From NCBI GenBank assembly GCA_035235625.1, contig CP141143.1:4260501-4324500 (forward strand): a DNA stretch of 64,000 bases. Reading direction: 5' to 3'. The notes below the pieces were generated by a model, which saw only the letters and a program-made list of their open reading frames with translations, had not been told where the DNA came from and searched no databases. This DNA is from Saururus chinensis (Eukaryota > Streptophyta > Magnoliopsida > Piperales > Saururaceae). The position numbers and the translations under genes are program-made. Below, piece by piece: positions 3,101-55,200 of this stretch (positions are counted from its first letter, which is position 1; each line of letters opens with the position of its first letter).

Positions 3101-5228
3101 TTAGGAAACATTACAACATGCATGACATAAAGACCTAGAATCCAAACAATAGTAAATTCCAACATTCAATAATGGTGGTTGTGTAAAATCTATGTCAGAT
3201 GACTAGAATTTTTGGATTCACATGAGTGTCACCCGGAGCTCATCATAGAAGCCTTGACTACAGGTCCTAGTAGTTTATAAAAATGGAAAACATATGAAAT
3301 TGGAGCAGCTACAAATAAATTTATATCATGTAGCCACCATAAAGAAATTTAGAGTAATTAATTATGGATTTTTGCAACTGATTAAAGAATTTTATACATG
3401 TATAGAATTTCACAACAGCCAAAACGAGGACAATATCTCTCAGCACCTAAAATGAATGAGAATATTGGTCCTTACATTTCAAGTACCCAACCGAATGTCT
3501 TATCTGTTTTAGGGTCCTTTTTCATAGCCAAAGACACATTCATCCATGTAGGAGCGATTTTCTCAAGAGAAGCCTGCAACAAACTCTCAAAATATTTCAG
3601 GTTGTATGATGAGGGAAATTATTCTTTCAAAATATGATGCTTCACAATTGTACCTTGCTAATGATGACAGGAGAATTCCCTATGGGATCAATATTGGTGA
3701 TGGGTCCCTTCTCTTCAGGGAAGTATTTTCGCAATGCTGATTCATATTTTTGGGGTTCAATATAGAAAAATGGAAAAGCAGCACCGAAACCATCCTTTGA
3801 TAAGTTTGGTATGGGCTTAACAATGATATGATCTGGTTCGGCCATCAGTATATAACTGTCCACAAATTTGTTAATCAATGTCCCATTTGAGTAGTTAAAT
3901 CAGAAGCAAGTTTCTAATATTTAAACCAGATAGAAACTTTGACTGTCATACTCTTCCTTAATATTTGCCTTTTGAACCCACTGCACAAATGCCCACGGTC
4001 TATTGAGTACTATATAGCCCTGATACAGCAAAATAAAGGCCATCAAAACACAGAGTGAGAGGACACTGGATTGACAATCTCACAGAAATTCCACAATGAG
4101 TTATCAATCAGATTATATTCGTCTGAGACAATTAAATTTCACTGTCATATAATCTATAAAGAGGACAAGAATGAGTTGTCGATTTACTTTGAACTACAAA
4201 TTACTATAAGCCATGGAAATTTTAGATATACAAAATCAACAATTGGTGAAAATCTCTTCATTTTGAACCGCCACTCAATGGCTCAAGCCTCCTACTTCAA
4301 AAACTACAAGAATACCATGTCTATTTTCAATCATATACCAACCGTAACCAATAAAAAAACCCAAGAAAGTGAAATCAGCCTAGTGCACTAGTGAACCTAT
4401 TAATTTAAAATTTTTACTACTGTGTCTAGCAATCTCCTTTGGAACGTCCATCAATGCAGCTATTATTTGCACCTAAATGTGGCCATTCTTCTAAACAAAA
4501 AGCAAAATTTTGTGTAGAATTCAAGCTTCTCCCTTATGTTAAAATCCTGCAAGTCAAATGTGGAAAAAGATAAGCCGTATTAGTTTCCCCATAATTTTTA
4601 ATCAGCACGTCAAACCAATTATGTTCTCATCCACATGCTCTTGTAGAAACTAGCAATGGTGCTTTAATAGCTATTCTACATTCATTTCGACCACAACAAA
4701 TTAAGAAGATGACAAATTTTCAGCTTAGTAGTCCCCGCATTAGTTAAATTGAAAAATAACTAACTATAATCTGAATAAAGGGAAAAAAAAGAAGAGAGCA
4801 ATGACAATTGCCTGGTCAATTCCAGGAGGCAGAGGGTCGGCAACGAAAGTGGGGATCTCATCCATAAGCTGATCAGGCTTGCCAGAGTGCAAAATTCTGG
4901 TAAACCCACCCATCTCCGAATCGGGTTCCTTCTGGAACTTCTTAAACCAATAATACATGATTCTGCACTGCCAAGTATTGTACACCGAGTCGGATGCCGT
5001 AACGGCGGTGTGGAACAACCTCTTCTGCTGTTTGAACTTACCCGCATTGTCCACGGGCATTTTCACTATGGGGTCAAACGACAAAATCCGAGAAGACGAA
5101 GAAGGAGGACTTTGGGAGCCAGGGAATTGGGGGCTAAGGGGAGCATTGGACGAGACGATCACATTGTATGTGATCAAGGCTACAGAGAGCGTGATCATAA
5201 ACGTGTAGAAGAGGCTTTGGCAACCCAT
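112..5228 (-). CDS. HPAT: Hydroxyproline O-arabinosyltransferase (HPAT family), 8 exons
   Basis: The enzyme adds the first arabinose to hydroxyproline of secreted peptides and extensins in the Golgi; this role comes from the HPAT/RDN1 family. The coding exons I joined, in transcript order, are 4812-5228, 3952-4019, 3654-3855, 3476-3573, 2946-3015, 1232-1303, 1040-1153 and 112-171. They total 1101 nt, or 366 aa plus stop, a normal length for the family. The protein starts MGCQSLFY and has one hydrophobic segment at about residues 7-25, as expected for a type II Golgi signal anchor. Family signatures follow: RLFHTAVTA, YNTWQCRIMYYWFK, SEMGGFTRILHSG, LNRPWAFVQW, the acidic EPDH motif at about residue 168, PEEKGPITNIDPIGNSPV and YAYAVSSALHGVSNI, and it ends NIPNWGA. 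Every junction keeps frame with GT-AG, except intron 1, whose donor reads CAG then GCAATT. Intron 5 carries LINE fragments. The family assignment is strong; the subgroup (HPAT1/2/3) is not decided. Confidence 0.95.
1819..2640 (-). mobile_element. Degenerate LINE (non-LTR retrotransposon) reverse-transcriptase 3' fragment
   Basis: Read on the minus strand, this part of HPAT intron 5 holds broken pieces of a plant LINE ORF2 C-terminus. From high to low coordinate there is an RT core with the ADD box (ADDVVLIDK, at about 2590-2620), then LESKGFKISRTK-like residues, a LYGVECW-like motif, and a VDCVSTG piece near 2070. Last comes an open stretch at 1819-2010 reading RTWMDLL...DRIEWRHKI, which matches the conserved tail of plant LINE ORF2 proteins. 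Frameshifts and stops lie between the pieces, so the copy is dead. The motif order is correct, which points to one truncated insertion rather than chance. The exact ends were not determined. Confidence 0.75.
2695..2800 (+). mobile_element. Second LINE RT fragment, opposite orientation
   Basis: On the plus strand this piece reads DVVLVDKTIARLN...LKGFKI, the same RT region as the minus-strand fragment at about 2522-2620. The two segments match along roughly 100 bp as an inverted repeat with a spacer of about 75 bp. The host intron RNA could fold here. Confidence 0.65.
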
Positions 5229-6126
5229 CTCTCTCCCTCTCCCTCCGCGCCACCCAGCCTTGCCGGTCGGATATTAGTGACGGTAAGAGGAAAGAAAGTC
5301 GTCGTTTTGACCTCCGAGCTTCCAATCTAATCCTCTGTTCTCCACTTCCATACAGAAGGAATGCTGTTGAAAGAAGTCCTCCACAGTAGTTGAGGTCGTC
5401 TGTTGCGAGGTGAGCGGTTGGATTCGGCCGGGTGGCGGCTGGAAATTGGAACCAACTCAGAGGAGGAGTTAAAGGGGCCACCCCCCGCGCGATGTGGCCA
5501 GCATCTACGGCAAAGAGCACATGTAAGTGCTCATAGTTAAATGAGAAACCTCGTGACAACAAATCGTGGACATTTGTTGTGAACATGAATAATTTTATTT
5601 TAAATTTACTATAAAAAATAGCAATTAGGCAACTTGAAGCTTGAAATCAAATAAAAAAAAACTCACTCTTTTTTTAAGTTCTTGGTGGTGTTTATGAATT
5701 TATTTTTAAAAAATAAAAATTTCAAAATAAAAAAAATAGTCAACTCCATAGTTAGTTTATAGTCCTACTGATTTTAAAGGAGTGAAAAAGAGGTAAATGA
5801 GGAAAGAATTGGAGAAGAATAAAAAAAGAAAGAGGAGGAAGACAAAGAAGGGGGTAGACAAAGGTATAGGGAAGTCGAAGGCAGATAAAAGTTTGTGTTG
5901 AAGTTGAGGTTCCTATGGACCTTCTGGCATGAGCGTAAGCTCCTTTTTTTTACACATTCTCTAAGATTAAATATTTTTTATTTTTAATTATTTTATTTAT
6001 GGGTGATTTGTAAAATTTTAAAGAATTTAACCATTTAGCCTTACGAGTTAAATATAACTTGAATTTAGGGATGTGACTAATATAGTTAGAAACTCAATAA
6101 AAAAAACTTTGAAATGCCACAAAAAA
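5229..6126. other. 5' flank of the HPAT gene; AT-rich intergenic DNA
   Basis: The first 250 bp upstream of the HPAT start are GC-richer and probably hold the 5' UTR and core promoter of that minus-strand gene. I could not name a convincing TATA box. From about 5590 the sequence becomes very AT-rich. Open frames on both strands here overlap the HPAT first exon and show no family resemblance. Confidence 0.4.
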
Positions 6127-17700: not shown

Positions 17701-20700
17701 ACTCCATGGTTATCCGTCCCCACTACATCTTTCTTTCTCTCGTCTTCTCTACCCTTCCTACACCCTAAAGTTCTATGCTTCTCAGCTAGGACACACTGTC
17801 CTACATCACTTTGCCATCACTTAATATTTATACATATACAGTAAGTTTATGACCAGTCTCAAGCTTACAAAGTCACCAAAATCAGCAAAATATGCAAGTT
17901 ACAATTCAAAACTCATACTTCTCATTTACCGAGTATAAGAACAAGCATGCTGAAAATGCAGAAATACTACAATGCAGGAAAGACGAAAAACAAAAAAGTT
18001 TAAACTCACATACAGAAAAGTCTGACGAGAGGAGGAGAGAGAGTACGTGCAGTGCGTCAAATTTGAGAGCATTGTGCAAAACAGCAAACTCTCTCGCTAT
18101 CATAACCACCTGAAGTGAAAATGGATAATTGAGAAATTCACAAGTGCCGGTGAAAATTTAACACATTAAAATGATCAATTATACGAATAGAACAATAAAA
18201 CTGTGTAGAAGGACATATTTTAAATAAATAAAAATGCCTCCTTTTTAGGCTACCTGTTCTTTGAGTAGTCATACGGTATAAGCAAAGACTTGCAAGTGTA
18301 GAATTCCCATTTAAACAATCATACATTTTATTTGTTCACTCAAATAGTAGAAAACCAAGAGAGAAGTGTACTTACGGCAAAAGCCTGATTCAAAATTGAT
18401 TAATTTTTAATAGCCTATTTAAAACTTTCCTCCCTCGTACTATCCAGATCTGCCACATAAATATGAAATTCCCCCCTAGGTTCAATTTCATACTAAAGTA
18501 TCTCACATAAATGTTCAATGTCATGCAACATAACTTTTTCTTAATCATTTGATTTAAAATAAATAATCCTAATAATATTGCTGTCACTCTTATTTATAGG
18601 TAGTGATCATACCTTTTTTTACCAAAAGGTAGAGACAAGTGACTGAAAGTATAATCAGTCACAGCATGGAAAGTGAAAACTTCTCAGAAGCCAAAAACCT
18701 TACCGTCCCTAATACCTTAAGAAATGTATTGGTGCAGCTAACTTCTACAATGAAGGCGACTCTACTTTAATACACTTTGTAACACCCTGGGTCTTTAAAC
18801 ATTGCTTTAAACGCAGTGAAAAAGTTTTATAAAGTGCTGGCAGTATTTTAAACATTTTAACAAAAGATCTGTTCAAGGAAAACCTGAGATGCCATACTGA
18901 CTGACACACACATTTCAAAAAACGCATTACATCTACAGAAATAAATATCAGGATCTACTATTGTGCACAAGATACCACATCAGGAATATCATAGTGTAGA
19001 AAGTAAGAGCATTACACGTGCTTTAAATTAGTCAAAATTGGCACATTGCATTAGATGCCTAACTTCCAACTATGCATAGAATAAAACATGGTAATCATAA
19101 TTACATTGCGTGTGTAAACCATCCACTCACATACAACCCACCCCTAAAGACCCACTGCCATCGCTGCTGGTACCAGCAAGGCCTTCGGGGTGGCAAGCGC
19201 ATAACACACTACTCAGTAGGGAAAATTAGAAACATAATGCACAAATGCATTGTAAGATAGGATTAGCTATACTTAACATTCCAAATATGTATGAGATGCA
19301 TGAGACAATGTTTCAAACATAAGAGAAAATAGTTTACAGCCTCTTGCAAACACCACTTCAACTATGGATGGAGCTCATTTTCATATTCATCCAGAAAATC
19401 CCTTTCAGATCTCTCCAAAAGCCATTCAAAAGGAAAACTATATAACAATTTCAAGTCACATGTAACTTCATTCCCGGAAGTCACTTATAACCTGAAAGTT
19501 CACTGACAACATTCCCAGACACGAACTCCAATTTTGTACAGAAAGATGGCCGAATATTTAAGCAGCTGAACTTACCCTTCACACATTGACTCACTGTAAG
19601 CAATTCCATAGCATGGCCAGCAGAGAATTTTTCTTTGTCAACCAACAGAGGTCAGCTCGTCAACCACAAAGGGAGTCTTAAAAATTCCACTTGTAGGGGT
19701 TCCATCTCGGGATTTGCACCACCCATGACCAAACAAACAAGCTCCAAACATAGTGACAAAATTGGCATTTGGGTTCCTTTCTGTGGGGGTTAATTTTGGT
19801 TTTGTTTCGCATTACTTCAGGAAAATTTTGGGAAAGTTTCAGAGAGTAAGAAGAGGAAGGAGAAGACAACCCAAAAAATAACCTGCCCTAACTGTCAAAA
19901 CTCAAAAATAATCTGCTCAAACCGTAAAAAGCCTAAAAATAACTTATCTGAACAATAAAGAACCAAAAAATAACCTAAGAATAATGTTAAAAAAAGCCAC
20001 CTGAAAGTAAATTTCTCAAAATTTTGGCAAAATTTCCAAAATTCCAAAAATTCAGTGAAATGGCCTAATTTTCAAAATACATTTCATTTCAGTGGAGGAC
20101 CATTTTGCCGAAATTAACAAAATTTTGCGAACATTGTCACTATGGTTCCAAACACTTATAACAAGAAAATAAGATAGTAACTTGCACATAAACGGAGGAA
20201 AAGGTTCATCCCATTCATTAATAGTTTTACAAAACAAGCAGATGATACACACTTTGCATGGAAGTTTTACGTAAAAGTCAAGAAAGATACCTTGCAAATA
20301 ACATGATCATCATAAATGATGCCTAATCATAGTTATATGGGTTCCACCATTGCCACTTCCTGTTTGGGTAAGATAGTAACTTGCACATAAACGGAGGAAA
20401 AGGTTCATCCCATTCATTAATAATTTTACAAAACAAGCAGATGATACACATTTTGCATGGAAGTTTTACATAAATGTCTAGAAAGATACCTTGCAAATAA
20501 CAAGAAAATAAGATAGTAACTTGCACATAAACGGAGGAAAAGGTTCATCCCATTCATTAATAATTTTACAAAACAAGCAGATGATACACATTTTGCATGG
20601 AAGTTTTACATAAATGTCTAGAAAGATACCTTGCAAATAACATGATCATCATAAGTGATGCCTAATCATAGTTATATGGGTTCCACCATTGCCACTTCCT

Positions 20701-23700
20701 GTTTGGGTAAGATAATGATGAGCAAGACAATGATGATTATACTGGCAACTTATCATTTTAATTGTTTGTAAAAGAATTAACCAATAATGTGTGTTCGGCT
20801 TCTCTCTCTGGCTAGCTGCACCAATGAGTTCCTCAACGTGTCCAGGGATCAACGGGTGCTCAACTCCCAAAAGCAATCAGATTTACTTAAAACATACACC
20901 TCATGAAATTTGCCAAAAATTTCTACACACATGCACAGATACAAGAGATATCGCACACTTTAAAAAACACTTCTGCTAGTGTCACTCATTCAACATAAAT
21001 AAAACTTATTGATTTCTCCTTCTTCACATATTTTTTCATCAAATTTCATATGAGTGCAGCTTGCGTTGTTGATGTAAGCATCTAAGTGGTGCTAGTGTGA
21101 AGCTAGAATTTCAGCAAAAAAGAAGTGTAACATTGATCAACTAACATCCAGCTTTAGCTAAAACTGGCTTCACAACTAATTCCTATATAAGGGGGTTAGA
21201 GTGAGGGTAGAAGTTCAGTCAAAAGTTGGGAGAGTCGGCATAGGCCAAGTGCTGTCTTGATTCACCTAAACTGGCTTGGTGACAAATTCTTATCAACAAA
21301 ATACATGTAATAAACATAAAGCTACCCCTACCATGCATGCCAACTCTGACGGATGTCCAATAAGTATAACATTTAGGGGCACCTTGCTTAGAATTAGTTG
21401 CAGCAATTTCATTGCATACTCGAACAAAGGAGAACCTTCACACAAACAATCACAAACAGTTACGTCAGTAGCAATTCCTATGTTCAAAACGAACAAGAAT
21501 AACCTTTACAAAACCTTATCCGAGGATATATATCAACTTTAATATATGACATGTAGGTCCATTGACAAACTACTAATAGTACAGAATATAATCCCGGCTC
21601 CTCATTTGAATACCTTCAACCCCATATCATTAGGCTGTCAATTAAACTTTCCCTTCATCAAAACTGTTCAGGAACAGCCTAACAATGTATATCAAGCCTA
21701 TATTAACTTCCATGAAATTAAAAGTAATTTATTCTTTCTAATTAGCATACAGCATCAACCAACTTTATCACCTCCTACGGGAGTACCGCAACATGATGGC
21801 CTGGAAAGACAATTTGAGGCTCCCCTAAAACATAAATGAGTGCAGTTACTACTAAATTACACCAGGAAAGCTTGGGACCTCAATCTAGCAAGATCATATT
21901 AATAATTTTCAATCTTTTATATTCTTAAATAAATAAGACTCAATGTAATTTCTTGCACTAACTATTTTTTTTTATCCACCTTCATTATGAGACTGAATTT
22001 TGAGATAATAGCAGGTTGTCAATATTGCACTTAAGTCTTCTTACTAAACAACTTATGGATCCCATACATGAAAATCTCAGAACCTCATAACAATTTACAG
22101 TTAATGTTGTAAAATATTTCCTTAAAGGCTGATGTCCATATGCCTAAAATTATATATCTACGAGATTGCAGAAATGTAATAAATCAGATGAAGATGAAAT
22201 AAGCAAAATGCAGATGAAACAAACATATATTGCAAATACCATCATGGTAGGAAGAAATGTCAGCAGCAATAATTTTCAACCCTTGTCCGTCATAGAATGA
22301 AGTGAGTCCATCATCACTCGCTGTTGCTACCAAATAAAGAAATTCATAGCATTCTTCAGCAACAGATGGCAGTGAACTGCATCAGTAGTCATGCAAGTCA
22401 AAAAAAAAACATACACTGAAATAATCAATAAAAATCTATTCAAGCTTGAAGCTGAAAGTACACCTACTAATTTTAAATTAACACACCTAATATCACTAAC
22501 ATAAAGATATGGAAATAAGCAAATCTACAAGTATAACCCATGTGCAGCATCCAAAGGGCAAAGAGAATCACACAACTAGTGTGAAATATTGGGAAAGATG
22601 AATGATTTCAATTGATAACACCAAAACTGAAAATTGAAACAAACAGAACACGCTGCAAAGAGTTTCACCATCATAATCTTTCAACTACGTAATATCCTAC
22701 AATGTATCTTCACCTTCTCTCTACATTTAAACTGAGATTATCATGGCACTTTCCAGACAACCACCAGAAGGAAAGAAACATGAGAAAATTGATGAGTCAA
22801 ACAGTCTTAAACTCCAAAAAAAATGACATCTTAGTAGTATTTGTTATTCAAAGTCTCAAACCCATCCTAGCATATTTGGTTCCAAAAAAAAAAGCAATTC
22901 AATCAGTTAGATGCCTATATCAGAAAAGCATCACCATTCATTTAGAGGTATTTATTATATCATTTTTAGCTTAAATAATACCTCTTACCATAAACATTAA
23001 AATGTAACTGAATCTGAACATATCACCTTCACATAATTCACTAGGCTTTTAAAAAAGAATAAAGCTAGCCTCCACAGCTACGCAGGCTAGAGGTCTGCAC
23101 GTGAGGATCACCAGTGCCTTTCCCAGCGCCAACGATGGGAAAAGAGGCTGGGCGGGGCAACTCAACCCCAGCCTCTGAATGCCATCCTTCCGCCGGTCAG
23201 GCCATGAAGGGGGATGGGGGATAGAGGAAGAGGCCTAACGCCCCCCCCCCCCCCTCCTGCACACCCACCTGACCTTTGCAGCTACACAAGTTAGGCGGCC
23301 TCTTTAAATAAGGTAAATAGAGATACTATAGTACTTCTACCTGTGGTTCCTGAGTGATAAAATGTAACAAGTGAAGTGCCGCACATCCATAAAACAAGGC
23401 AGAAACAAAGATGTTCACAAGCATATCAACAACATAAAGATAAGTAGATTACCAAGACTAATACTTACAGTTTCCAATGACACAAGGAAAAATACAATGC
23501 AAAAGGAAAAAAAACAAAACAATCTCTTCCCTCCCTCCCCCTCCCCACCCCCACAACAATACACGCACACATGTAGCCACACTTGATCAAGTACACAAAG
23601 TACATACAAGACATTCAGTAACACTTTTGAGCATTTTCTCACCCCAAATATGTTCAGGTGAGAAATGCGCACTAACCACATTTGGCAGAGGGTTTGCTAA

Positions 23701-25164: not shown

Positions 25165-27450
25165 ACACTAAAAATTAATAGCCCTATTTAATAAATAAAT
25201 ATTATTTTAAATTAATATTTTTATTTTATTAAATTTAATTAGTTGAGTGTCTGAAAAATATTATTATAAGTTTATTTTTTATTTTATAATTAATTTTTAC
25301 TATTAAATAAAAATTATTAATTTTTTAAATATAATTATTAATATATGATAGAAGAAATAATTTTAAAAAAAATATTTAAATAATAATTAAAAAAATTAAT
25401 TGCTATTTTAGACCATATTTTTTAAAGTAGTGTTCCTTTTTGTCCTACTAACGCTAGCCAAACAGTCGGCCCCTGCGTGACTTTTTTTTATTTTTTTAGT
25501 TAATTTTATCCTTTAAAAAGATAAAATTAGGTTTAAATTAATTTTGTCATTCTAAAAGATGAAATCGGGTCAAGTCTTAAAACTTGACCCAATTTCGTCC
25601 TTCAAAACTATAAAATTATGTAATACTGATTTCGTCCTTTTAAATGATGAAATTAAATTACTTTTTTTAAAATCTATTTTAAACTAATTTTAACACATGT
25701 CTATGTTTATTCATTCCATACATACCAAATATAACATTAAAGTATTAACATCATCGAATAAAAATAAACATAAAATAAAAATATTTATCAAATATATTAC
25801 ATCACAAGTCAAAAAAATATTTAATTTAAAATAAATATACAACAAAGTTAATATCACAATCTCCTACGTCCTCGACCTCGGCCTCGACGGTGCTATACGA
25901 GCTCCTCCTCATGATCTAGCTTTAGCTCGGGATGTGGCTCTATCTTTGGCTCCTCACGTACCTTTACAGCTTGGGAAGAGTATCTCGACAATGCCAATGC
26001 CCCCTCTGGGGGCACAAGAGATGTAGTTGAAATCCTAGCAAAAGATCTCACGAAAGGGATTGCAGTTATAGATGCAGAAGTCGCGGTCGATGCCGGTGGC
26101 AAAGCAGTTGTGCTCTTAGTTAAAGGAGAGGTAGATGAAGGTGGGAAGGGAAGCTGCCTAGGTTTGGGTTGGTAGGATTGGGGCCTGGGCTAGAGAGAGG
26201 CGAGGGGGAGGTAGACATGAAGAGGCAGGGTCAACTAGAACATTAAAAGCGTGGTGTAAAAAATCGAGGGTGAGTTAGAGCATTAAAAGCTTGGTGCAAA
26301 TTGCTACACTATAACAGTTAAAAAAAACTAAGGAAGTTGATTTAGTCGTTTAAAACGACGAAATCATAGAATATGTACTAAGTTTAATGTTTGTTGCATT
26401 GGAGGGTTATGACACGACCTCAATCAAATGACTGGAAAAAATTATTGCGATGCAATCATTGAAAGTCAAAATAAACAATGCAAAAGATAGTGCAATCATT
26501 GAAAGTCAAAATTAAAAATACAAAATTGTAGGGAAGCTCGTGAGATGCATTGTAAGGAAAGAATTTGTTTTTAAAAAGCTGATAAAGTGGGACACCTATT
26601 TATACTATATGGAGTTATGAAAATAATGGAATTCATAATATACACTAATATGGAAGTCCCATAATTGTGCTTTAAGTGCTTGTCTTGGCCATATAGAAGT
26701 CTTTGCTGATAAAATGATGCAGTAAGGAGAGAATCATTGTTGCAGATGTATTTGCCTGAGGCAAGATTATTGGCTCTCACTTGCGGAGTTGCCTTTACTA
26801 TGAGCCCTTTAGACCAGCTATGATGATATGATCAACTTTTATGCAAGGAGTTAGATAAGTTGGATTAATGTGAATCTTTAGGACCAGCTAAATTAACATG
26901 AATCTTGGTGTATGGATCCTCGTAATGTAAAGCAATGATCAAGATTAAATTATGAATTGAAGAATGTAGAGTTGGTGAGGTGCACATATTGCCACACATA
27001 GCGTTAGTTGTTGTGAATGATGTCAAAGAGTGTGACAATTTCATCCTTTAAAAGGATGAAATCAATATTACGTGATTTCGTCCTTTTAAAGCACAAAATT
27101 GGGTCAAGTCTTTTAAAACTTGACCTAATTTCGTTATTTAGAAAGACGAAATCAAGTAAAAAAAAGCCACGCAAGCGCAACGGCTTGGTTGGCGCTTGCG
27201 TGGCAAAAAGGAACACCACTTTGAGAAATATTTTCCAAAGTGGTCCAAAACAGTAATTATTTTTTTTAATTATTATTTAAATTTTTTTCCTAATTTTTAT
27301 TAAATAATAAAAGTTACATTTAAAATAAAGAAAAATAAGCTTATAGTATTTTATTTTAAGTAATTATTTACTTAAATTGAATAAAATAAAATTATTAATA
27401 TTAAATTTTTTTGTCAAATAGAATTATTAATATTAAGATAAACAAAATAA
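25165..27450. mobile_element. 2.3-kb element with long (~450-500 bp) terminal inverted repeats, MULE-like
   Basis: The left arm (about 25165-25680) and the right arm (about 27015-27450) are inverted copies along most of their length. Shared blocks, reading inward, are AAATAATAATTAAAAAAA, AAAGT(A/G)GTGTTCCTTTTTG, a CGTGACTTTTTTTT-type run, GGGTCAAGTCTTAAAACTT with its complement, and ATTTCGTCCTTTT with its complement. The middle (about 25690-27000) is unique and carries no complete transposase. Long inverted repeats around a non-transposase interior fit a non-autonomous Mutator-like (Pack-MULE-type) element, but no 9-bp target duplication was confirmed, so the superfamily is an inference. The foldback at 6127-6565 shares its motifs. 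Confidence 0.65.
25861..26120 (-). pseudogene. Possible captured coding fragment inside the long-TIR element
   Basis: On the minus strand an open stretch of about 69 codons (26102 to 25893) is Pro/Ala/Ser-rich, turns acidic at its end (ELKLDHEEELV, stop), and is followed out of frame by an Arg-Gly-rich RRGRGRGRRR stretch near 25861-25890. Base composition here is much richer in GC than in the rest of the element. Such acidic and RG-rich tails occur in some plant transposon-linked proteins, but I do not recognise the family. It may be a host gene fragment or a transposase tail. Confidence 0.3.
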
Positions 27451-32328: not shown

Positions 32329-35300
32329 TGTCACGCCCTGGCGATGCCCGACCCTAGCCAAACCCGGTCCAAGGGCCGGTCAAGCGCGCTGGGCGACAAA
32401 GGGAAATTGAGAAACAATTTAGCGGAAGACTTAACCCTAACCACGGGCGATTTAATAAAATTACAGAGTACGCATAATCCTTTGACCAAGAGTAAATAAG
32501 AAGAAAAGAAAGAGAGTTGTTTATCACAAAGTAAACAACAAATCTCAAACCCACATGTTTAGTTAACTAAAGCCCACACTAGCTCAAAATAAGTCTTAAG
32601 CAAACACAACTGCAAAATGTGACATAAATCCAAAACAATAAAAAACCTTACACAAAGGTTCTAAACATAAGACATAAAACCAAAGGAAAATAAGTCACAC
32701 AACGATCTCCACGATCACATCCAAGTCATCTCCGACCTTTCCTCAAAGAGGAGATCCTGTCCGTCTGCGTGTCACACCACGTAGCCCCAAAATAAAACAC
32801 AAGAAAGAGGGGTGAGTTTAACAAACTCAGCAATGGTTTTTAATATCACTATCAACATCAAAAATACGATAGCATAGCAATATGATCATTCAGATCAAAA
32901 ATTTACATGGTGCATCATTTTTTGATCACGCATACACATCACCTAAAACTGTATCATAGTGCATAATCCACATAATTTCTTTCTCATCATAACACCCTGC
33001 ATGAAATGTATCTCTAACATACATATTCCATCATGCATCATACCATAATCAACCTGCATGAATGTATCTCTAACATACATATTCCATCATGCATCATATC
33101 ATAATCAACCTGCATGAATGTATCTCTAACATACACATTCCATTATGCATCATATCATAATCAACCTGCATGGATGTATCTCTAACATACACATTCCATT
33201 ATGCATCATATCATAACAACCTTCATCAAGGAGTAATCACAATTTGGTGTCACACAGACGGGACATAGACAAGGCCACAAAGGCGTGTCATTGTCTAAAA
33301 TTCTACACAAGAATTCAAGAAAGATTAGGGTTGTCAATCCCTAAAGTTGCTCGCCCTGGACGATCCTAGCCAAGGATGTCTCATTCTCACACATAGAATC
33401 TAGAGCAGGGGTGTTCACCCAGGGACATCTCATGCGGAGGGGAGAGCCCGAATTTCCACACAGGGAACCCTAAAACACGTGGTAGCGGGTGCACACAACA
33501 TACCACACTACATCCTCAGGGTTCAGATGACACTCATAATAACATTCTCACAATCCGCAAGACAAGTACATAACTCGTCCCCACATAATTCCATTCAACT
33601 AGACTCAACCCGGGGAGTGCACTCGTTCCACACAGGAACTCAAATCAAAACATGTCCCTTCGGACCAATCAACTTACAATTAATCCACAACCGATCAATC
33701 TGACACACAATTTCACCACATTGCATCCAATCGGTCAAATTCGATTAACCTCGATGAAGCCTCAATTGGAAATCTATTTTCATGAGCATGCAGCATGATA
33801 CATATGTAGGCAAGGCATACATGAATCCTAATCCATGATAAGTGCTCTCATCAGCCCCTAATGCATCATTTATAATCACAATATTAAGCTTCAAACATCA
33901 TCATTTAACCCCCACATGTGTGTGTAACTAGTAGAAGTACTTCACTCAATGCATTTCAACATGCTTAAAATTAACTCACTACCACACTACACATGTGAAT
34001 TAACATCTAATCATACATTTCAGCGGAAATCATAGGAGAAGAATCGTTGAAATCATAACTCAAATAAAAACTCAACCACAAAGGCTAAACATATATAAGA
34101 TCATTCATTTCATCCTTGAATCATGACATTCACCAACATCCACACATCAACTAACCACATTCTATCATGACAAATCAGTCCATTAATAGGTTGTAGTCCT
34201 ACTGAAAATATGCTTAACCACATGGAATCAACCATTCACAATTTCAAGATGACAATTCCAACATTATGCCACAAACTATAAGTCATTCCACAAACCTCTA
34301 AGCATATATATCTCAACTCCATAACCTCAATAACATGCCTTTCCAGTAGCATAATATAGCTTAAAACACTCCACATTCATATGAAATTGGCAAGCTAAAG
34401 TGGAATCATCGAAATAAACATCATGCATTAGAACAAAATTCTACTATGTAGCCGTTCGAACACCCTGCAGGCCGTTTGATCGGCTAAATGGGAAAAATTC
34501 AAATTCATAGTTTGGCCGTTCGAACGCCCATTAGGTCGTTCAATTGGTTGAACTGAAAATCTGTCGATCCGACAATGTTGCTGTTTGAACGCCCAAAAGG
34601 GCCGTTCGAATGCCAACAAGGCAGAACTGATCATCTTCTTCCTTTCGCGATTTCAAATCTAGACACCATTGATAACACTTTAAATCAACATCTAACACCC
34701 TAATTATTATCAAAAGTCCTTCATAACTGTCAGAATATTAAACCATATCATAATAAGGTAAAACCCTATAAAATCGGGATTAAAGATTACCATTTTCTAA
34801 TCATGCCATTAACACACCAAATTAAGTAACTCCATTCAAAATAAGCCAAAAATCAAGAGTTTTACCATGGATAAACTAAAATTTTGAAAGGATCATTACC
34901 TTATCCCTTGATTAAGCTCGGATTTGATGGTCACCCTTCTTGAAAACCTTACAAAAACATAGAGTTTGAATTAAACTCCATTAAAAATCGATTTACCAAA
35001 GAAATCTCTAATTAAAACTTAGATCTAGGGCTTGTTGAACATAAAAATCAGATTTTGAAAGCTAGGGTTTGTAGTAAAATACAAATCAGTAGTTTTTGAT
35101 GTCCAAAAACGAATTAAAACAAAGGAGAAATGGTAGATTAGAAGAGATTTAGAAGAGATTAAGAAGAAAGCTAGGGTTTAGTGCTTAATTAGAGTAGGCT
35201 TACCTTAAACACCTTCTAATCCGGGCCTAATTGGGGATTAGGCCTAACCTCTCCTCCTTAGCCTATTCCCAAAAATGGAAATGGCTCAGGTTTGGTTTTT

Positions 35301-35726
35301 TATAGTAAGGGTTAAGGTATGTATGGGTAAGTTATGGGGTGTAAATAGGAAAAGTAAGCTAAAAATGTGTATTTTACAAATTTGAGTACTAATTAAGTCT
35401 AAGAAAATTCTGAAAATTTTTGTATAACCTTAAGTAGATATCTGGGTTCATTTAACCCAAAAACCAAAATTTCGACGGTGGGGTCCACAGGGGTCCAGCC
35501 AAAACCCTAATTTTTGAAAAAATAGTAAAAATTTTAAAAAATCCTAAAAATTTACATTTGTATTAAAATCACTTAAAACCACTAATATTAAAGTTGATTT
35601 TGGTTAAAACCATCATAATCACTACTTATTCACGAAATCACCGAATAAATCAGAAAACGTGTTAACCTTAGGATAACCGATAATTAAAGAAAACCAAAAA
35701 TCAGTTTAGAGATGAGGGTATTTACA
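32329..35726 (-). mobile_element. Large solo LTR (3398 bp), target duplication TATAT, Gypsy type
   Basis: The element begins TGTCACGCCCTGG and ends GGGTATTTACA. TATAT precedes it (32324-32328) and follows it (35727-35731). On the minus strand the LTR therefore reads TGTAAATACCC...GGGCGTGACA, an end type known from plant Gypsy elements. A TATA box on the minus strand (TTACTATAAAAAACC, about 35296-35308) supports that direction. Internal features are a minisatellite of four 56-57 bp units and repeated CGTTCGAACGCCC-like words at 34450-34620. An LTR of this length fits the Del/Tekay chromoviruses, which is an inference. No internal domain flanks it, so it is solo. Confidence 0.85.
32996..33221. 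repeat. Minisatellite, four copies of a 56-57 bp unit
   Basis: Copies start at 32996, 33053, 33109 and 33165. Each runs CCTGCATGAATGTATCTCTA, then ACATACATATTCCATCATGC, then ATCATATCATAATCAA, with few changes; the last is truncated. It lies within the large solo LTR, so it was probably present in the retrotransposon. Confidence 0.95.
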
Positions 35727-36002
35727 TATATAGAGTCAAAAGTCTTGGACCTATTTCATACCAAACTCTTTCCATTTAGATGGCTAAAGACTCACTTCCT
35801 TCAACCTCTTATGCCAAAATACATCAGTCTTGTGGATACGATACATTATAAAGATATTCACACACCTAAGAACAATGCGTTATGAGGTGTGAAGTGGAAG
35901 AGAAGGGATGTCATAATTGGGGTTTTCAATAAGATGACCTTTTTATTTTTTATTTTTTATTTTTTTTATAAATAATAATAATAATAGGTGTTGAGCTTTT
36001 TA

Positions 36003-36121
36003 TCATCTTGGCGTCGAGCTATTTTTAGGACCTCCCCTATAGTATCGTCACCACAGTAGAGTTTAACCACCAAGTTCGGGATGGATTGGTGTAGTTCCTC
36101 TACGCCTAGGACACTAGAATA
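36003..36121 (-). rRNA. rrn5: Plastid-derived 5S rRNA gene copy (nuclear, presumably not functional)
   Basis: On the minus strand it begins TATTCTAGTGTCCTAGGCG and contains the highly conserved CCATCCCGAACTTGG and TGGTGACGATACT segments, ending in GCTCGACGCCA. Compared with the usual plastid gene it has a four-base deletion just before the AAAAATAG stretch and a few transitions. It is a passenger of the NUPT and lacks a plastid transcription context. Confidence 0.9.
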
Positions 36122-36349
36122 CCGAACCATGAACAAAGAAAGGCATGAGAGAAAAGCATATTGGCTAGTAATTGTGAGGCCCCAATTCTTAACTAAAAGG
36201 GACACCAAACAAAGGCCTCTGCCCTTCCATTCCTTGGATAGATGGAGAGGGAGGGCAAATCTTTTGATTTTTTCACATTGTCAAATAGTTAAAAAATGAA
36301 AATAGATGGCGAGTGCCTAACCAAATTGATCAGGTTATGTAGGAACAAG

Positions 36350-36453
36350 GTTCAAATCTCTCGGTCTATTAGGATGCCTCAACAGCATACATCACTGCAC
36401 TTCCACTTGACACCTATTGTAATGATAAACGGCTCGTCTCACCGTGACCTTTC
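36350..36453 (-). rRNA. rrn4.5: Plastid-derived 4.5S rRNA gene copy (nuclear, presumably not functional)
   Basis: On the minus strand it begins GAAAGGTCACGGTGAGACG and includes GCCGTTTATCATTAC, GGTGTCAAGTGGAAGTGCAG and TGAGGCATCC, ending near TTGAAC, a length of about 104 nt that matches the plastid 4.5S rRNA. G-to-A changes are visible against the usual sequence. The NUPT break coincides closely with the 5' end of this gene. Confidence 0.88.
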
Positions 36454-36539
36454 ACCTATTATATAATTCATCACATATAATTGCAATTAATGCATCAAAT
36501 AGTATGTCATTATTTCTCATAATAATAGCCTAATATTCA

Positions 36540-37460
36540 TAGTAATTCATTGATGTGTCAGCCAAGTCACCAATGATAATCGGTAACACATCGACGAGTT
36601 GAACCCTTGCCGACAATGGAATAAATAAGAGAATCATCCTCATCGACGTCTTCATCAATGTCTACATCATCGCCGATAATCCATCAGTAAGACACCGATG
36701 TCCCATAGGTTCACTGGTATTGTTCAATCTTCTTCTTCTTACATCGATAGCATCATTGACATGTCGACATATACGTTGATGGACGGGAAAAATGTAGAAT
36801 CATATATCATCATAAAAATAACTTTATGAAATCAAATATAATCATGTAATCAACTTTAATTTAATCCTTAACTATCACATAGAGAGATTAAAGAGATACT
36901 CATCAACATAACATAAAATATACATTCATGAATCATAAATACCATGAACAACATAGCATATCATTAATGGTTAAATCTAAATTTAAGACATATACTACTC
37001 TATCCTCATTCATCAACATTAATTTTTTATTTTTACAATTTTAGGTTAGCAATCCGATTTCTGATTAAACAATGAAGAGATCTCTACAAATCTAGCTTCA
37101 TTCTCCCAAACTTTGACTTGCCCTATCCCAATATTCTACCCCAAAGTAAAAGAGTTTGCTAGAGTTGGGTTAATAATTCATCAAAGGTATATTATATGGA
37201 TGTCTAAAAATCGAATCAAAGTGCTTAACCAACTCTAAAAACCATTTGAAATTGTTTTAATTGCAATTTTGTAACCGTTGGTAGATTGGTTCTAGCATTA
37301 TCGATGTGTCGAACCATGCAGACAAAGAAAAAATAGCTTCATCGGTGAGTATATCAACATATTAAACCTCACTGATAAAGGAATTATTATCTTATTAGTA
37401 GGTTCATTAACACGTCGAACATCGCCGATAAAGTTTCACTATGTTCATCAACATGTTAGT
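36540..37460. repeat. Diverged transposon sequence with repeated ATCAACRTGTCGA / CGCCGATAA words
   Basis: Short words of the type CATCGCCGATAA, ACATGTCGAC, ATGTGTCGAAC and CACCGATG recur in both orientations over about 0.9 kb. A similar patchwork occurs at 56640-57010. Dense short subterminal repeats of this kind are typical of CACTA-type ends, so I infer a decayed CACTA-like element. No terminal repeats or transposase were identified. Confidence 0.35.
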
Positions 37461-37759
37461 GCTTTACTAACAAAACTTTAATATGCAAAATAAATAATAA
37501 TTTTATATCTTATTTACTTATTAACATTATTACTTTATTGAGTAAATTTATTCTATAATATTATAATTTTAAAAAATTAAAATTATTTTTAAAAATTACG
37601 GATGCCACAAAGGGATAGATAAACTCAAAAATCGACGATGCATGGGCTCACATGGACGCATTGAGCTGGTTCATCCAAATAGGGCTCATATATAATATAT
37701 ATTTTATTGTAGATATTTGTAAGTCCAATAGTAGCCCCACATATTTTATTATGGAAAAA

Positions 37760-37864
37760 GTTTTATGGGTCATCGGATTTACATCTGACGGCCTATAATA
37801 CTAGGGGCAATTAAACCCCTTAATATCATGTGCCGTCAGATGTAAATCCGATAACCCATAAAAC
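37760..37864. repeat. Near-perfect 33-bp inverted repeat (hairpin)
   Basis: The arms at 37760-37792 and 37832-37864 are reverse complements with one mismatch (GTTTTATGGGTCATCGGATT onward). The 39-nt loop itself contains a smaller GGGG...CCCC pairing. It would fold into a strong hairpin on either strand. It could be a tiny MITE. The right arm borders the tandem duplication that follows. Confidence 0.9.
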
Positions 37865-38361
37865 TTGGGCTCATGCATACTCACATGAGTGAGCCGAGGC
37901 TCATATAAACACCACACCAGTCGGCACTACGGCCATGGCAACGAGATCAAGATCTATGTTTGTTAGCTCAAATTAATGATCTAGAATGGGACAACAATAC
38001 ACAGCCCCGTTCGGCTTAGCTTTTTTCTACATTGAAGCTGTAGAATCTTACACCAACCAAGGAGAAACATAATACATTTAAAACTCGGAAGGAAGATTAT
38101 ATACCTTCTATTGGATATAAATCCCATGATTCATAGAGCTTGGGCTCATGCAGATTCATGTGAGTGAGCCGAGGCTCATATAAACACCACCCCGTCAGCG
38201 CTATGGTCTAGAATGGGGCTTTGATGATTTGCTTCAGTTTGTCTTTCTCTACAATACACGACCCCGTCCGGCTTAGCTTTTTTCTAAATTGAAGCTACAG
38301 AATCTTACACCAACCAAGGAGAAAGAGAATACATTTAAAACTCGGAAGATTATACCTTCCA
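37840..38361. repeat. Tandem duplication (~275-bp unit, two copies)
   Basis: Copy 1 (from about 37864) and copy 2 (from about 38139) share CTTGGGCTCATGCA, GAGTGAGCCGAGGCTCATAT (running into AAACACCAC), CGGCTTAGCTTTTTTCTA, AATCTTACACCAACCAAGGA and AATACATTTAAAACTCGGAA. Copy 2 has a different middle of about 35 bp. Both keep a CTCATATAAACACC word that resembles a TATA box reading on the plus strand. The duplication ends about 130 bp before the stop codon of the next minus-strand gene. Confidence 0.85.
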
Positions 38362-38492
38362 TGAACTATATAGTAAGGCGCCACAATTAAGACAGACTTT
38401 GATACTACAATTTTCACCACGAGATAAAAGTGAATAAAGTTTCTATTAGATTCAACAATTTGAGAGCAGCCACGGAGAATCCATCTAAGCCA

Positions 38493-43891: not shown

Positions 43892-44596
43892 CTAATCTGG
43901 CCCCGCCTTCACTTGTCTAGTGTTCTCCTTCGCCCCAACCTCCGATATCGAGAAGAGGTGAGCCAAAGAAGTGACGGTGGAGCAGCTCCGGCCACCCTTC
44001 ACCAAAGAAGCAGCCTTGGGCTTGCTCCCCGCCGTTGTTAATGGTCTCTTCTTGTCCGCCGATATCGAAGGGGAAACACATCCGCCTGAAGAAGGGGAGG
44101 AAGGCGGAGAGGGGGGCACCGGCACGGGGATGTAAGGCGAGGATGCGAAGTTAGTCCGCGCCTTTGAGCCCCGCATCCGCCTAGCCGCTGCGTCGTAGGC
44201 CCGTGCCGCCTCCTCAGCCGTGTCGAAGGTGCCCAGCCAGTGTCGGCATCGCCCGATGCGGTCGCGAATCTCCGCAGACCAGCGTCCCCAGGGTCTCTTG
44301 CGGACGCCCCGGAACGTCCTTTGCACCGGCTCCGACGCGGTCGCCGGCTGCTGCTTCATGTCGCGCTGCTGCAGCTGTTGTTCTGGGGCGGACGTGAAAA
44401 CCGAGTCTGGGTGGTCAGGTTGGGGGTCACCGAAGAGGACGCGGCGGCCGACGACCGCGGCGATGCCCTCGAGGAGAGGCTCGTCCGAGACGGAGAGGAG
44501 GCGAAAGGTATCGGGGGGAGGAGGATGTAGCAGGTGGAGGAAAGGGGAAGGTGAGTGAGATTCCATGAAAGAGACAGGAGTGCTGCCTTCCGACAT
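43892..44596 (-). CDS. ERF (AP2/ERF) transcription factor, intronless
   Basis: This encodes a 234-aa nuclear DNA-binding protein with a single AP2/ERF domain at about residues 94-150. The domain starts [13 protein letters not shown], has the ERF-type SAEIRD segment, continues [20 protein letters not shown] and ends [14 protein letters not shown]. The [18 protein letters not shown] form is not that of DREB proteins; it resembles a small ERF subgroup that includes Arabidopsis ERF087, though I hold that placement loosely. The flanks are Pro/Ser-rich and probably disordered; a KKRPL stretch after the domain could help nuclear import. No EAR repression motif is visible at the C-terminus. The start at 44596 is the first ATG; a second is at codon 11. 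The gene is much more GC-rich than its surroundings, as is usual for intronless ERF genes in monocots. Confidence 0.93.
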
Positions 44597-45129
44597 GCAC
44601 GAGGGAGCGAGGAGAAAATGACGGGAGAGTCGAGTGGAAGTAATTTGAACTACTCCTGAGAATGGCCTGTGTCTGTGTGGCTGCAGGGAAGAACCATTTG
44701 TGTCTTTCTGACCAATATATCTACCGTGTATGGATTGAATAAGAAGGCAGAAGGTAACGAAAACAGAGGCAAACGAGGGGGAAATAAATGAGGCAGTGAT
44801 GATGTCGAGACTCGCGAGATATGGCTGTCAACTTCGATACGACCGTATCCCTCCTCCGTCCTTTTCCATCGATACGGTGGGACTTGACGCAGACCGATAC
44901 TCTTTTATTTCCCAAGCGATGAAGCCACTTCGTATAACAAATGATGTGACCAGTGGGGCTATATTAGAGGGCATGGTGGGGGAGGAAGGAGGAGTGGTCT
45001 CGACGGGCGGGCTGTGGCTCGGTCCCCGCGTCAGTCTGTCGTCAAAGGACTTGCTTCTTTGACCGCATGAAGTTTTTAGTGCAACGTGAAAATAGCAATA
45101 GACAAGATTTACGGCTTATGCACTCTTTT

Positions 45130-50400: not shown

Positions 50401-53400
50401 TGTAACTGTTGCCACTGACCCACCAGGCCCATCCAAAACAACACCGTAGAAAGCAACAACATTTGGATGGTGCAAGTCTGCAAGCTTACATGCCTCGTTC
50501 CAGAAGTCAGATCTCTTTTGTATGCAAAAACAGTAACAACAAAGAATTTTTAATCAAACAAAATTTGCAACCATCAGACAGGAAAGAAATTACTTAGATA
50601 ACCAAGAAATACTGACCAAACGTTCCTGTTCTGATGGCTTTCCAGCAAAGCATCTATCATTTATCCGTTTGATGGCAACATCTGTACCCCTCCATTTTCC
50701 ATGATAGACGGTCCCAAATGTGCCAGAACCAAGTTCCCGCAACTCTTCAAGATCACTATTTTTTATTATCTGTCAAAAACTGTGTTGTAAATGGCCCACC
50801 AAGTATGATGCATTTCAACACTGCGAGCTATTTTCTCACATACATACAACAGCAAGGTACCTGTAACCGATTGATGTCTTCAGTGATGTGTAAACCACTG
50901 ATTGCCTTATCCAAGTATTTTGACTTTAGGTCCTAAATCAGGAGTTAAAGCTTCATTCATAAATCCAGTTTAGTTAAATAAATTCAAGTAAAGACTGCCA
51001 ATATCTCAAGGGGTACCTGATTCTGTCCTTCTGCGTTATTCTGGGGAGGATCTCTCTCTCGAATGGATTGATCATCAGGCTGACTCGCACCATAAGTTGG
51101 AGGGAGGGGACCAGACGGCACAGATGATTGAAGCACAGATGCCGCTACACCCTCAGCAACCGCTTTTAAATCTTGCTTGATTTGCTCCTCCACAGAGCCT
51201 TTAACGAAAATTATAAAGAAAAATGTCCTTTTATTGTAAACACCAAAAAAGTAAAAGCATATCTAGTAACAAACTAGAGTGAATGACAAGAAAAAAATGA
51301 TTAATGACACTTGTCAGCTCATCCCTATGCTCTCAGACACTAAATCCAGCCTCCAGTCCAGGTATCACAGCATACAAAAATTGGTTCTCTAAAGAATTTC
51401 AAGAACCATATAATTGAGGCCTCTTATGTCAAGATCCAGTGATATGAAAACTTCTCTGATTTAAATTAAATACTTACTGCTTTCAAGGATTCCCTAGTCG
51501 TGAAATAGAGGGTTTCCTCCAGTCAGGCCGCTGGAGAACACAAATACCAAAGTGTCTAGTGACGCATAATAAAGAAAATACATCTATGGCTGCTGAGATG
51601 GAGCACCTTGCATCATAGGTAGATTTTTATTTTCTTTTGATAAGAAGATTGCACTTGACACTTCTTAAAATATTTCAATGTCAAAATACAGAAGAAAAAT
51701 GAAGGTTACGAGGTTCAAACCTTTGGCGAACTGAGTGGGATCCGATTGCATTTCCTGATTTAAACATTCTGCTAAGTCTAGGACCATTCCTTCCTCCACA
51801 CCCGTTCTGTTGCCCATCAGAATCTCACCACTATTATCAAACTGAGATTCACTGCCTGAATTTCTAGTTACATATACATCCTTGCCAGCTACTTTGTTAG
51901 GCCTTAGAGGCAGAAACTGAGCTTGTTGGGCCTGTTGGATCAAATTCCAAGGATCTTGGCTGCTGAAAAGGGTGTTTGATAAAGCTGGATTCCAGTTATC
52001 TCCGACAACTCCAGTTGAAGTGGTTGAGACCGATGTTGGAGAAGTAACAATTGGAAAAGAAGGTGCATCATTGACGATTCTCATAGGGATCTTCTCGACA
52101 TTTAAAGTTGAATCAATTCCGGAGACTAATGGTTTCCCCTGCCACACTTCACCAGATATCGTGGGAACAAAATCAATTCTCGAATGAACAGAAGTTTCAG
52201 GGTTCACTGATGGAGGTAATACTTGTTTGGGTTCCAGATTTTGATAATTATGCAAATTTGTGGGAACTTCCTCGGTAGTGGGCAAAAGTTCAACAGGCTT
52301 AACATATGTTACATCTGGGACTACTCCGCCAGGTTGCTTGATAAAAGTACTTGCATTGCCAACTGGAATAGGAAATGGGTCTGCTATTCGGGTTCCACTA
52401 TTAATCATAGCTGGTAAGCTTTCGGGATTCATGTACCTGGAAGCATTCGTGTCAGGACGGAAATTTGATCTATACTGCTCCATAACTTCCGAAGGATTCA
52501 CATGTAAAGCCTCCATTTTTGCATCAAGTGGTTTAATATGATCATACAAAGAGCAAGAGTCGGAGATGCCTTCTTTCGGAGACAGACCAGCATGCTTTCC
52601 TGGATACTCTACAGCGTGATCAAGGACAAAGCCTGCCTTCTGCTGCAAAGGAACGGTCCCTACCGGTGGAATCTCTTCATAATGGGAACGAGGGATGTTA
52701 TTCCCCACAAACGCACCATAAGAAGTCTGCCCCTCTGCGGAAATAGTATTCACTGCACCCAGCGGCTGAGATAACACTGTCCTTCCCATCTGAGGATGCG
52801 CGGCCACCTCATGAACACTGGAATCAGTATGCGCCACCAACCTGGGCTGGGGAGTAGCTCCCTGATAACCCAACTTATTCGTGCCTTCACCTAGCTGATC
52901 CATACCGTCATCTGACATCCTCCCAGTAACTACTACTCTAAATGGGTTATGGGACACGGTGCTCTCCTCCGAATTGTGAGTCTGAAAAAACTGATTCGGT
53001 TCAGAGATGGTCTTAGCAATCCCATTTGCAGCTTCCTGCAGTATAGTGTCGGAATGGGCATGCGGCAACACCTTTTGGCACATGTAGCATTCTTCTCGCT
53101 TAACTAACTGCTCAGGTTGTGGTGGTGGCGGCGGCGGCACTGGTGGCCACACGCAACGCTCCACAGTGGATCCATGTACAGAAGCAGGCGGTTGGATTTG
53201 GGGCTGAAAGAACTGATCGGCAGGGATTTGAACAACCCTGGCCGCACCAAGTGTGGCACTATCATCAACATAATGAGTATCGGCCCGATGCACAAAACGC
53301 TGGCCGCCATTGACATTCAATCCACCTCTGGGAGACGACGGGCCAGGCACCATGTGTGCCGCGGTTGATACTTGAGGATACGGAGATGGAATCCCGACAA

Positions 53401-54622
53401 CGTTTTCCCTGTAGATGGGTCCAGCAAACCCCACCTGCTGAGGGTTAGCGTATACGATCCTGGAAGAACTGTGCGAGTAATCCACCTGGTGCGGATCCAA
53501 GTAGGCCTGAATGTAGGTAGTCCGCTCTGGGTCACCCGGTCGCAGAGGCTTGGGCGTGGGCGCTGTCATGATCGGCGGTAGATTGACCGGCATGATCCCA
53601 AAATTGGGACCGGGATTCAAGTACACAAACCTTGAGCTTTCATGTGGCAAAACAACGCTGGCGGGGGCGGGGGCGCCGACGAGCGGAACGCCGGGCAACT
53701 CACCCTCCATATGCCCAGCGCTCGCCCCACTGTCTGCAACATCGCCGCCGCCGATGCTAGCCTGCCCATCAGAATGCGTCGACGAAACACTCGTCGCGCT
53801 CTCCTTCCTTCTGAATGGCACCACATTGGAGCCCTCCAGAATGCCATTGACAGCCTCCACATACCTCTGGCTAGTGTCGGCCAAATCGCCAAACTGCGGA
53901 ATCCCCGCAGCAGCTGGGGAATCGAGCTCCGAACAAGAGAACACAAACACGCGGAGCTTCGCCGACCCCTCTGGCGAACTCTCGGCCAGCTTCTCGTACT
54001 CGTCCATCATGTTCTCGAGGTCCTCCCCGCAGGAAACCGAGACTAGGGCATCGAGGTCCTCGTCGGGGAGCTGGTACTTGATGATCACGGTCGGCCCGTA
54101 GATGTCAGCCATCTTCTGCATGAACTCCGAGAATGCAACGTCCCGGCGGACGCTGATGATCCGCGTCTGCCCGCCCACGTACCGGAGGGCGCCGTCGCTC
54201 GGGCGGGGAAGGATCTTCCCGCCAAACCCGCAGAGGAGCTTCACCTTTCTAGCCGGAGGCAGCTGGTCACGCTCATCAGCACGGGCGGCGCCACCCTCCC
54301 CACCGGGGTGCTCTGGCGGCGGCCGCTGGGTGAAATTGAGGGCGTCCGGGGCGGGGGCCATCGCGGCGAGGTTGAGTGAAGGGGGAGGTGGCGCGAGGCG
54401 TGAGGCCCACAAGGACGCGGGAACGGGAACCGGGTTCACGAAGGCCAAGCTCGCGTAAGCGGGTTCGGCGGAGGGAGCTGCGACAGGAGGAGGGAAGAAA
54501 AGGGGCGGTCTGGAGGGGGGGCTGAGAGCGTGGGCGGCGACACGGGGGTCCTCGGCAACCGTGCGATTGAGGTTGATGGGGCGGAGATCCTTGGGGATCA
54601 AGTTTTGGTCGATCGCCATCAT
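47487..54622 (-). CDS. PB1-domain Raf-like protein kinase (MAPKKK-type), 9 exons
   Basis: A cytosolic serine/threonine kinase of the plant Raf-like group with an N-terminal PB1 domain. The closest in memory is the Arabidopsis B4 group, which phosphorylates SnRK2 kinases in osmotic stress; that role is inferred. The exons, in transcript order, are 51721-54622, 51017-51198, 50861-50932, 50617-50769, 50351-50514, 50118-50265, 48723-48845, 48499-48586 and 47487-47674, about 1339 aa, all GT-AG and in frame. The PB1 domain is at about residues 126-227 ([19 protein letters not shown]). A long Pro/Ser/Gly-rich middle follows. The kinase domain covers about 1058-1325, with the loop [13 protein letters not shown], Lys1086 in VAIKRI, catalytic HFDLKSDN (Asp1188, no Arg before Asp), DLG instead of DFG at 1210, and [11 protein letters not shown]. 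The HFD and DLG variants are normal for this group. The first exon is strongly GC-rich at its 5' end. The start is the first of two adjacent ATGs. Confidence 0.95.
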
Positions 54623-55200
54623 CCCAAATTATGAAATGATCTCCAACTCTCTCTGTTTCACTTTTCGTCAATCTAATATCTAAAATTAATTAAGAGAAAG
54701 CAAAAGCGGGGGGAAAAGGCAATAATAAAGGTTAGCTAGGGTTTATGGAATTGGCGCGGACCAGAGGGAGGAGAGAGAGTCACTTCCCTTCTTCTCGCCT
54801 GCGGGCACCACCGCCTCGTTGGGAGGGGGAAGCACAAACCCCCGAGCAGAGAAGAGCAACGAAGGAAGCTCGCACGCTTATCGTCTTTCTCCTGTTTTTC
54901 ATCATTTATTTTTGCTCGGGAGCGAGGAACAATCGAAATCGCAGTCCCCAACTCCACCGGGATTTGCAGGAGCCCGAGCCGGGCGAAGATGAGCTCCGGA
55001 TTTGCTGTAGCGAGTGCTGCGGCGTTTTAAGCTGTAGCGCTACTTCGCGCTACCGTTGCCCATCTATGTTACAAGGTAGACGGATTATATTGGAAGGCAA
55101 CTCACGGTTTTCGTACCCTTATTATAAGGGTAAATTAGTAAATTTATTTACAATTTTTTCTTTTATCTTCCATGGCACCTCCTCACAAAATAAAAAATAA
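54623..55200. promoter_or_regulatory. 5' UTR and promoter side of the Raf-kinase gene
   Basis: The 450 bp upstream of the kinase ATG remain GC-rich (to about 55070) and contain GAGA-type purine runs on the plus strand, equal to CT-rich runs in the transcript sense, as often seen in plant 5' leaders. Open frames on the plus strand here (54745-55200) show no family resemblance and are not called. Confidence 0.45.

Follow-up and report, generated by a model that had tools for sequence, protein, structure and literature searches.

A decayed fragment of the plastid 4.5S-5S rRNA region in nuclear-type DNA of Saururus chinensis

The window analysed here, a stretch of 64,000 nucleotides (64 kb) of the Saururus chinensis contig CP141143.1 (positions 4,260,501 to 4,324,500), carries on its minus strand, at 36004-36451, a block of about 450 bases in which copies of a 4.5S rRNA gene, a spacer and a 5S rRNA gene follow one another in plastid order. 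The two gene copies lie on the same strand about 230 bases apart, which is the arrangement of the plastid inverted repeat. The features of the block, its possible extension and the coding matches found elsewhere in the window are the following, in window coordinates:

36350..36451, minus strand: decayed copy of the plastid 4.5S rRNA gene (rrn4.5); evidence from Rfam RF02541, primer IRB24R and a provisional hand-written reference
36123..36349, minus strand: rrn4.5-rrn5 spacer of plastid origin; evidence from a provisional tobacco-like reference alone, weak on detail
36004..36121, minus strand: decayed copy of the plastid 5S rRNA gene (rrn5); evidence from Rfam RF00001, three rrn5 primers and a provisional hand-written reference
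35938..36003, minus strand: AT-rich DNA of low complexity (13% GC) in which the rrn5-trnR spacer possibly begins, with an uncertain left border
4767-5273, minus strand: coding match to the first part of HPAT (Pfam, stop-to-stop frame)
43895-44827, minus strand: coding match to AP2 (Pfam, stop-to-stop frame)
51668-54628, minus strand: coding match to PB1 (Pfam, stop-to-stop frame)

Within the entire 64 kb, the sole Rfam match to attain its gathering score was that of RF00001 (5S rRNA) at 36006-36118 on the minus strand, with 43.3 bits against a gathering score of 38. In land-plant plastids, the 3′ end of the large subunit (LSU) rRNA constitutes a separate gene, which codes for the 4.5S rRNA. 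A permissive-threshold Rfam run over 35700-36700 gave a match to RF02541, the bacterial LSU rRNA 3′ end, at 36361-36452 on the minus strand; its score of 24.3 bits lies below the gathering score of 50, and its E-value of 3.2e-05 applies to this search of 1001 bases.

Published plastid primers provided independent anchors (excerpts of PMC1318494, PMC9366256 and PMC4583483). Twenty-one primers located in and around the rRNA operon were chosen, and each was tested on the whole window. All four that fall within the block found their sites: the 4.5S primer IRB24R at 36389-36414 (26/26, no mismatch) and three rrn5 primers at 36055-36077 (23/23, no mismatch), 36097-36121 (24/25, one mismatch) and 36039-36061 (21/23, two mismatches), while the best of 60 shuffled versions of each had 5 to 7 mismatches. 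As two of the rrn5 primers share 7 bases, the four represent 90 distinct sites. The other 17 primers (16S, trnA, 23S, trnR, trnN and spacers) had 7 to 10 mismatches at best in the window, and each fared worse than the best of 60 shuffles of its own letters, a null result obtained with sparse probes from other species, which might overlook further short stretches of plastid DNA. Since four primers match and 17 do not, the window has this piece and gives no sign of the probed plastid neighbours. The preliminary description of this DNA had proposed a plastid origin and a 4.5S-5S order for the block, and both are borne out by the Rfam matches, which lie on one strand, and by the four in-block primers.

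The stretch between the two gene copies (36123-36349) aligned locally with a provisional tobacco-like spacer with a score of 281, where 200 shuffles reached no more than 26, and differed from this reference by 23 substitutions over 219 aligned sites. A tandem repeat search listed no repeat in the rrn4.5-rrn5 spacer at 36122-36349. Excerpts of two studies report repeats in this spacer in Artemisia (PMC3583863) and in buckwheat (PMC5529468).

All three primer mismatches are of the C-to-T or G-to-A type, i.e., 3 of the 90 distinct sites have changed, each from C:G to T:A. Both gene copies were also compared with a provisional angiosperm 4.5S and 5S reference, written out by hand when the window and the primers were already known, and it may lean towards both. 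That it contains the four primers exactly is therefore not an independent confirmation, and the differences may in truth be more numerous. Relative to it, the 4.5S copy bears 5 substitutions in 102 sites, and the 5S copy 5 substitutions in 118 sites together with a 4-nt deletion. Nine of these ten substitutions are C-to-T or G-to-A and the tenth is A-to-T, with no reverse transition. In plants, maintenance methylation acts in the CG and CHG contexts. By context, and with the same provisional reference, the nine changes comprise three CG, five CHG and one CHH, so that CG and CHG account for 8/9 (P 0.004, with 46 such sites among 109), and changes fall on G or C sites in 9/10 cases (P 0.010). 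The bias is weaker in the spacer, where 12 of the 23 differences from the provisional reference are C-to-T or G-to-A and four are the reverse, which may be partly because the spacer used for comparison belongs to another species. Judged by the provisional reference and by a small number of primer sites, the decay appears biased towards C-to-T and G-to-A, in agreement with the excess previously proposed for the block.

These changes bear on two alternative explanations. If plastid reads had been wrongly joined into a nuclear contig, intact plastid sequence would be expected; yet the primer sites carry the C:G to T:A changes described above and the 5S copy is four bases short of the provisional reference, and such an assembly chimera is very improbable. 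Slightly less probable again is the expression of the copy as a functional RNA: the 5S copy still scores above the Rfam gathering threshold, but has accumulated five substitutions and the 4-nt deletion as measured against the provisional reference.

The surroundings of the block were examined with Pfam in 8 selected reading frames out of the 29 listed for the window. PB1, AP2 and HPAT are nuclear gene families in plants. Three frames matched them, as expected of a plant nuclear chromosome, and five of the eight tested frames had no match at an E-value of 0.01. The nuclear setting claimed for the block is upheld by these coding matches. Although plastid pieces are often present in plant mitochondrial genomes, the coding matches of the window (PB1, AP2 and HPAT) are of the plant nuclear type, and plastid-derived DNA within a mitochondrial genome (MTPT) is the least probable of the explanations considered.

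Several repeats were also observed in the window. A strong palindrome at 37758-37866, made of two 50-nt arms that are 88% complementary and separated by 9 nt, possibly represents a small MITE or a hairpin element; its right arm is overlapped at 37839-38362 by two adjoining copies, each about 250-270 bp long, with 75% similarity. A 140-bp unit forms a tandem array at 20158-20714, with copies 96-100% alike, and a long diverged inverted repeat with arms of about 400 bp and 65% identity at 25257-27402 is possibly a transposon remnant.

The block combines plastid-type gene order and sequence with nuclear-type surroundings. It is almost certainly a NUPT, a piece of plastid inverted-repeat DNA that was inserted into a nuclear chromosome, where it is undergoing decay. 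Its plastid origin is indicated by the Rfam matches and by 4/4 tested published primers within the block, and its location in nuclear DNA by the PB1, AP2 and HPAT coding matches and by the absence of 17/17 primers from outside the block. The C-to-T and G-to-A bias, a typical but not obligatory trait of NUPTs, is found in the primers (3/3) and, relative to the provisional reference, in the rRNA copies (9/10) and the spacer (12/23). As a NUPT, it is an ordinary one, of a general kind that is common and well described.

The borders of the insert are less evenly defined. The preliminary description had the block extend from 35938 to 36453, with a break at the 5′ end of the 4.5S gene. That break, on the right, was recovered within a few bases, and the extent is well supported for 36004-36451, whereas 35938-36003 is without independent plastid support. 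The latter segment has 13% GC, is of low complexity and includes (TTTTTAT)n at 35940-35965; no independent plastid match was obtained for it, and a literature search with the left-flank letters found no match. According to excerpts of the respective papers, the rrn5-trnR spacer contains T17 and T20 runs in jujube (PMC4583483), and that of Artemisia has an A/T run of 11 (PMC3583863). In a search for a plastid counterpart of the block, distant DNA comparison with plasmids and phages gave no match, and exact patterns found none in viral contigs and genome contigs. To the right, at 36450-36900, the best hits of primers for the end of the 23S gene had 13 and 11 mismatches; to the left, those of trnR primers had 11 and 10 mismatches at 35300-35950, and that of a jujube rrn5-trnR spacer primer, possibly not conserved in this species, had 9 mismatches at 35600-36000. 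As the flanking plastid neighbours were not found where expected, these results suggest that both ends of the insert lie near the block.

An 8-base direct match, TGACCTTT, occurs at 35935-35942 and at 36445-36452, that is, at both edges of the block taken as 35938-36453, and its right copy overlaps the 5′ end of the 4.5S copy; the remaining matches between the borders are AT-rich. In a post hoc test with 20000 border pairs drawn at random at a spacing of 515 bases, 181 shared an 8-mer within 15 bases. Under looser bounds such sharing is common, as 47 of 377 other 330-base pieces have an 8-mer in common with the zone around the right border.

Comparison of the block with the window further revealed, at 35885-35911, a 4.5S-like piece in the opposite orientation (23/27 bases, 85%; E 0.008), located 26 bp to the left of 35938-36453. 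When 528 further pieces of the window were scored against the 4.5S copy, all had lower values, and none of 200 shuffled controls attained 23/27. This stretch may be genuine plastid DNA, may belong to the plastid spacer itself or may be a product of chance. A composite insertion, to which it could point, is rather unlikely; the NUPT would then be a mosaic whose plastid pieces came together prior to insertion or in its course, or would extend well into the rrn5-trnR spacer.

For the NUPT as such, the source fragment would have begun at about the 5′ end of rrn4.5, included rrn5 and perhaps reached into the rrn5-trnR spacer. It was most likely joined in as filler DNA during the end-joining repair of a double-strand break. 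Insertion by end joining, with 1-7 bp of microhomology or with blunt ends, is described for NUPTs in excerpts of PMC7037861. TGACCTTT could represent a microhomology used in the insertion, a post hoc reading that is suggestive at most and that we do not claim. The inserted copy would then probably have been cytosine-methylated, and C:G pairs would have been lost since by deamination. The copy is probably without function.

As far as excerpts of PMC6376042 and PMC7037861 describe NUPTs, the block shares with them plastid order and sequence, a nuclear setting and an excess of C-to-T and G-to-A changes, and no difference was seen in the features tested; the first of these sources reports the same bias for NUPTs in 17 species (PMC6376042). 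Nuclear copies of plastid rRNA genes are also known from moringa, in which the plastid is the source of 302 of the 324 prokaryotic-type rRNA genes in the nucleus according to excerpts of PMC11110229, whereas here there is one decayed copy within this 64-kb window.

Beyond annotation, the significance of this block is slight. Because Rfam scores the decayed copy above the gathering threshold, caution is required so that no working 5S rRNA gene is annotated here. Once the plastome of the same species is aligned, the block could become one data point on the decay of NUPTs.
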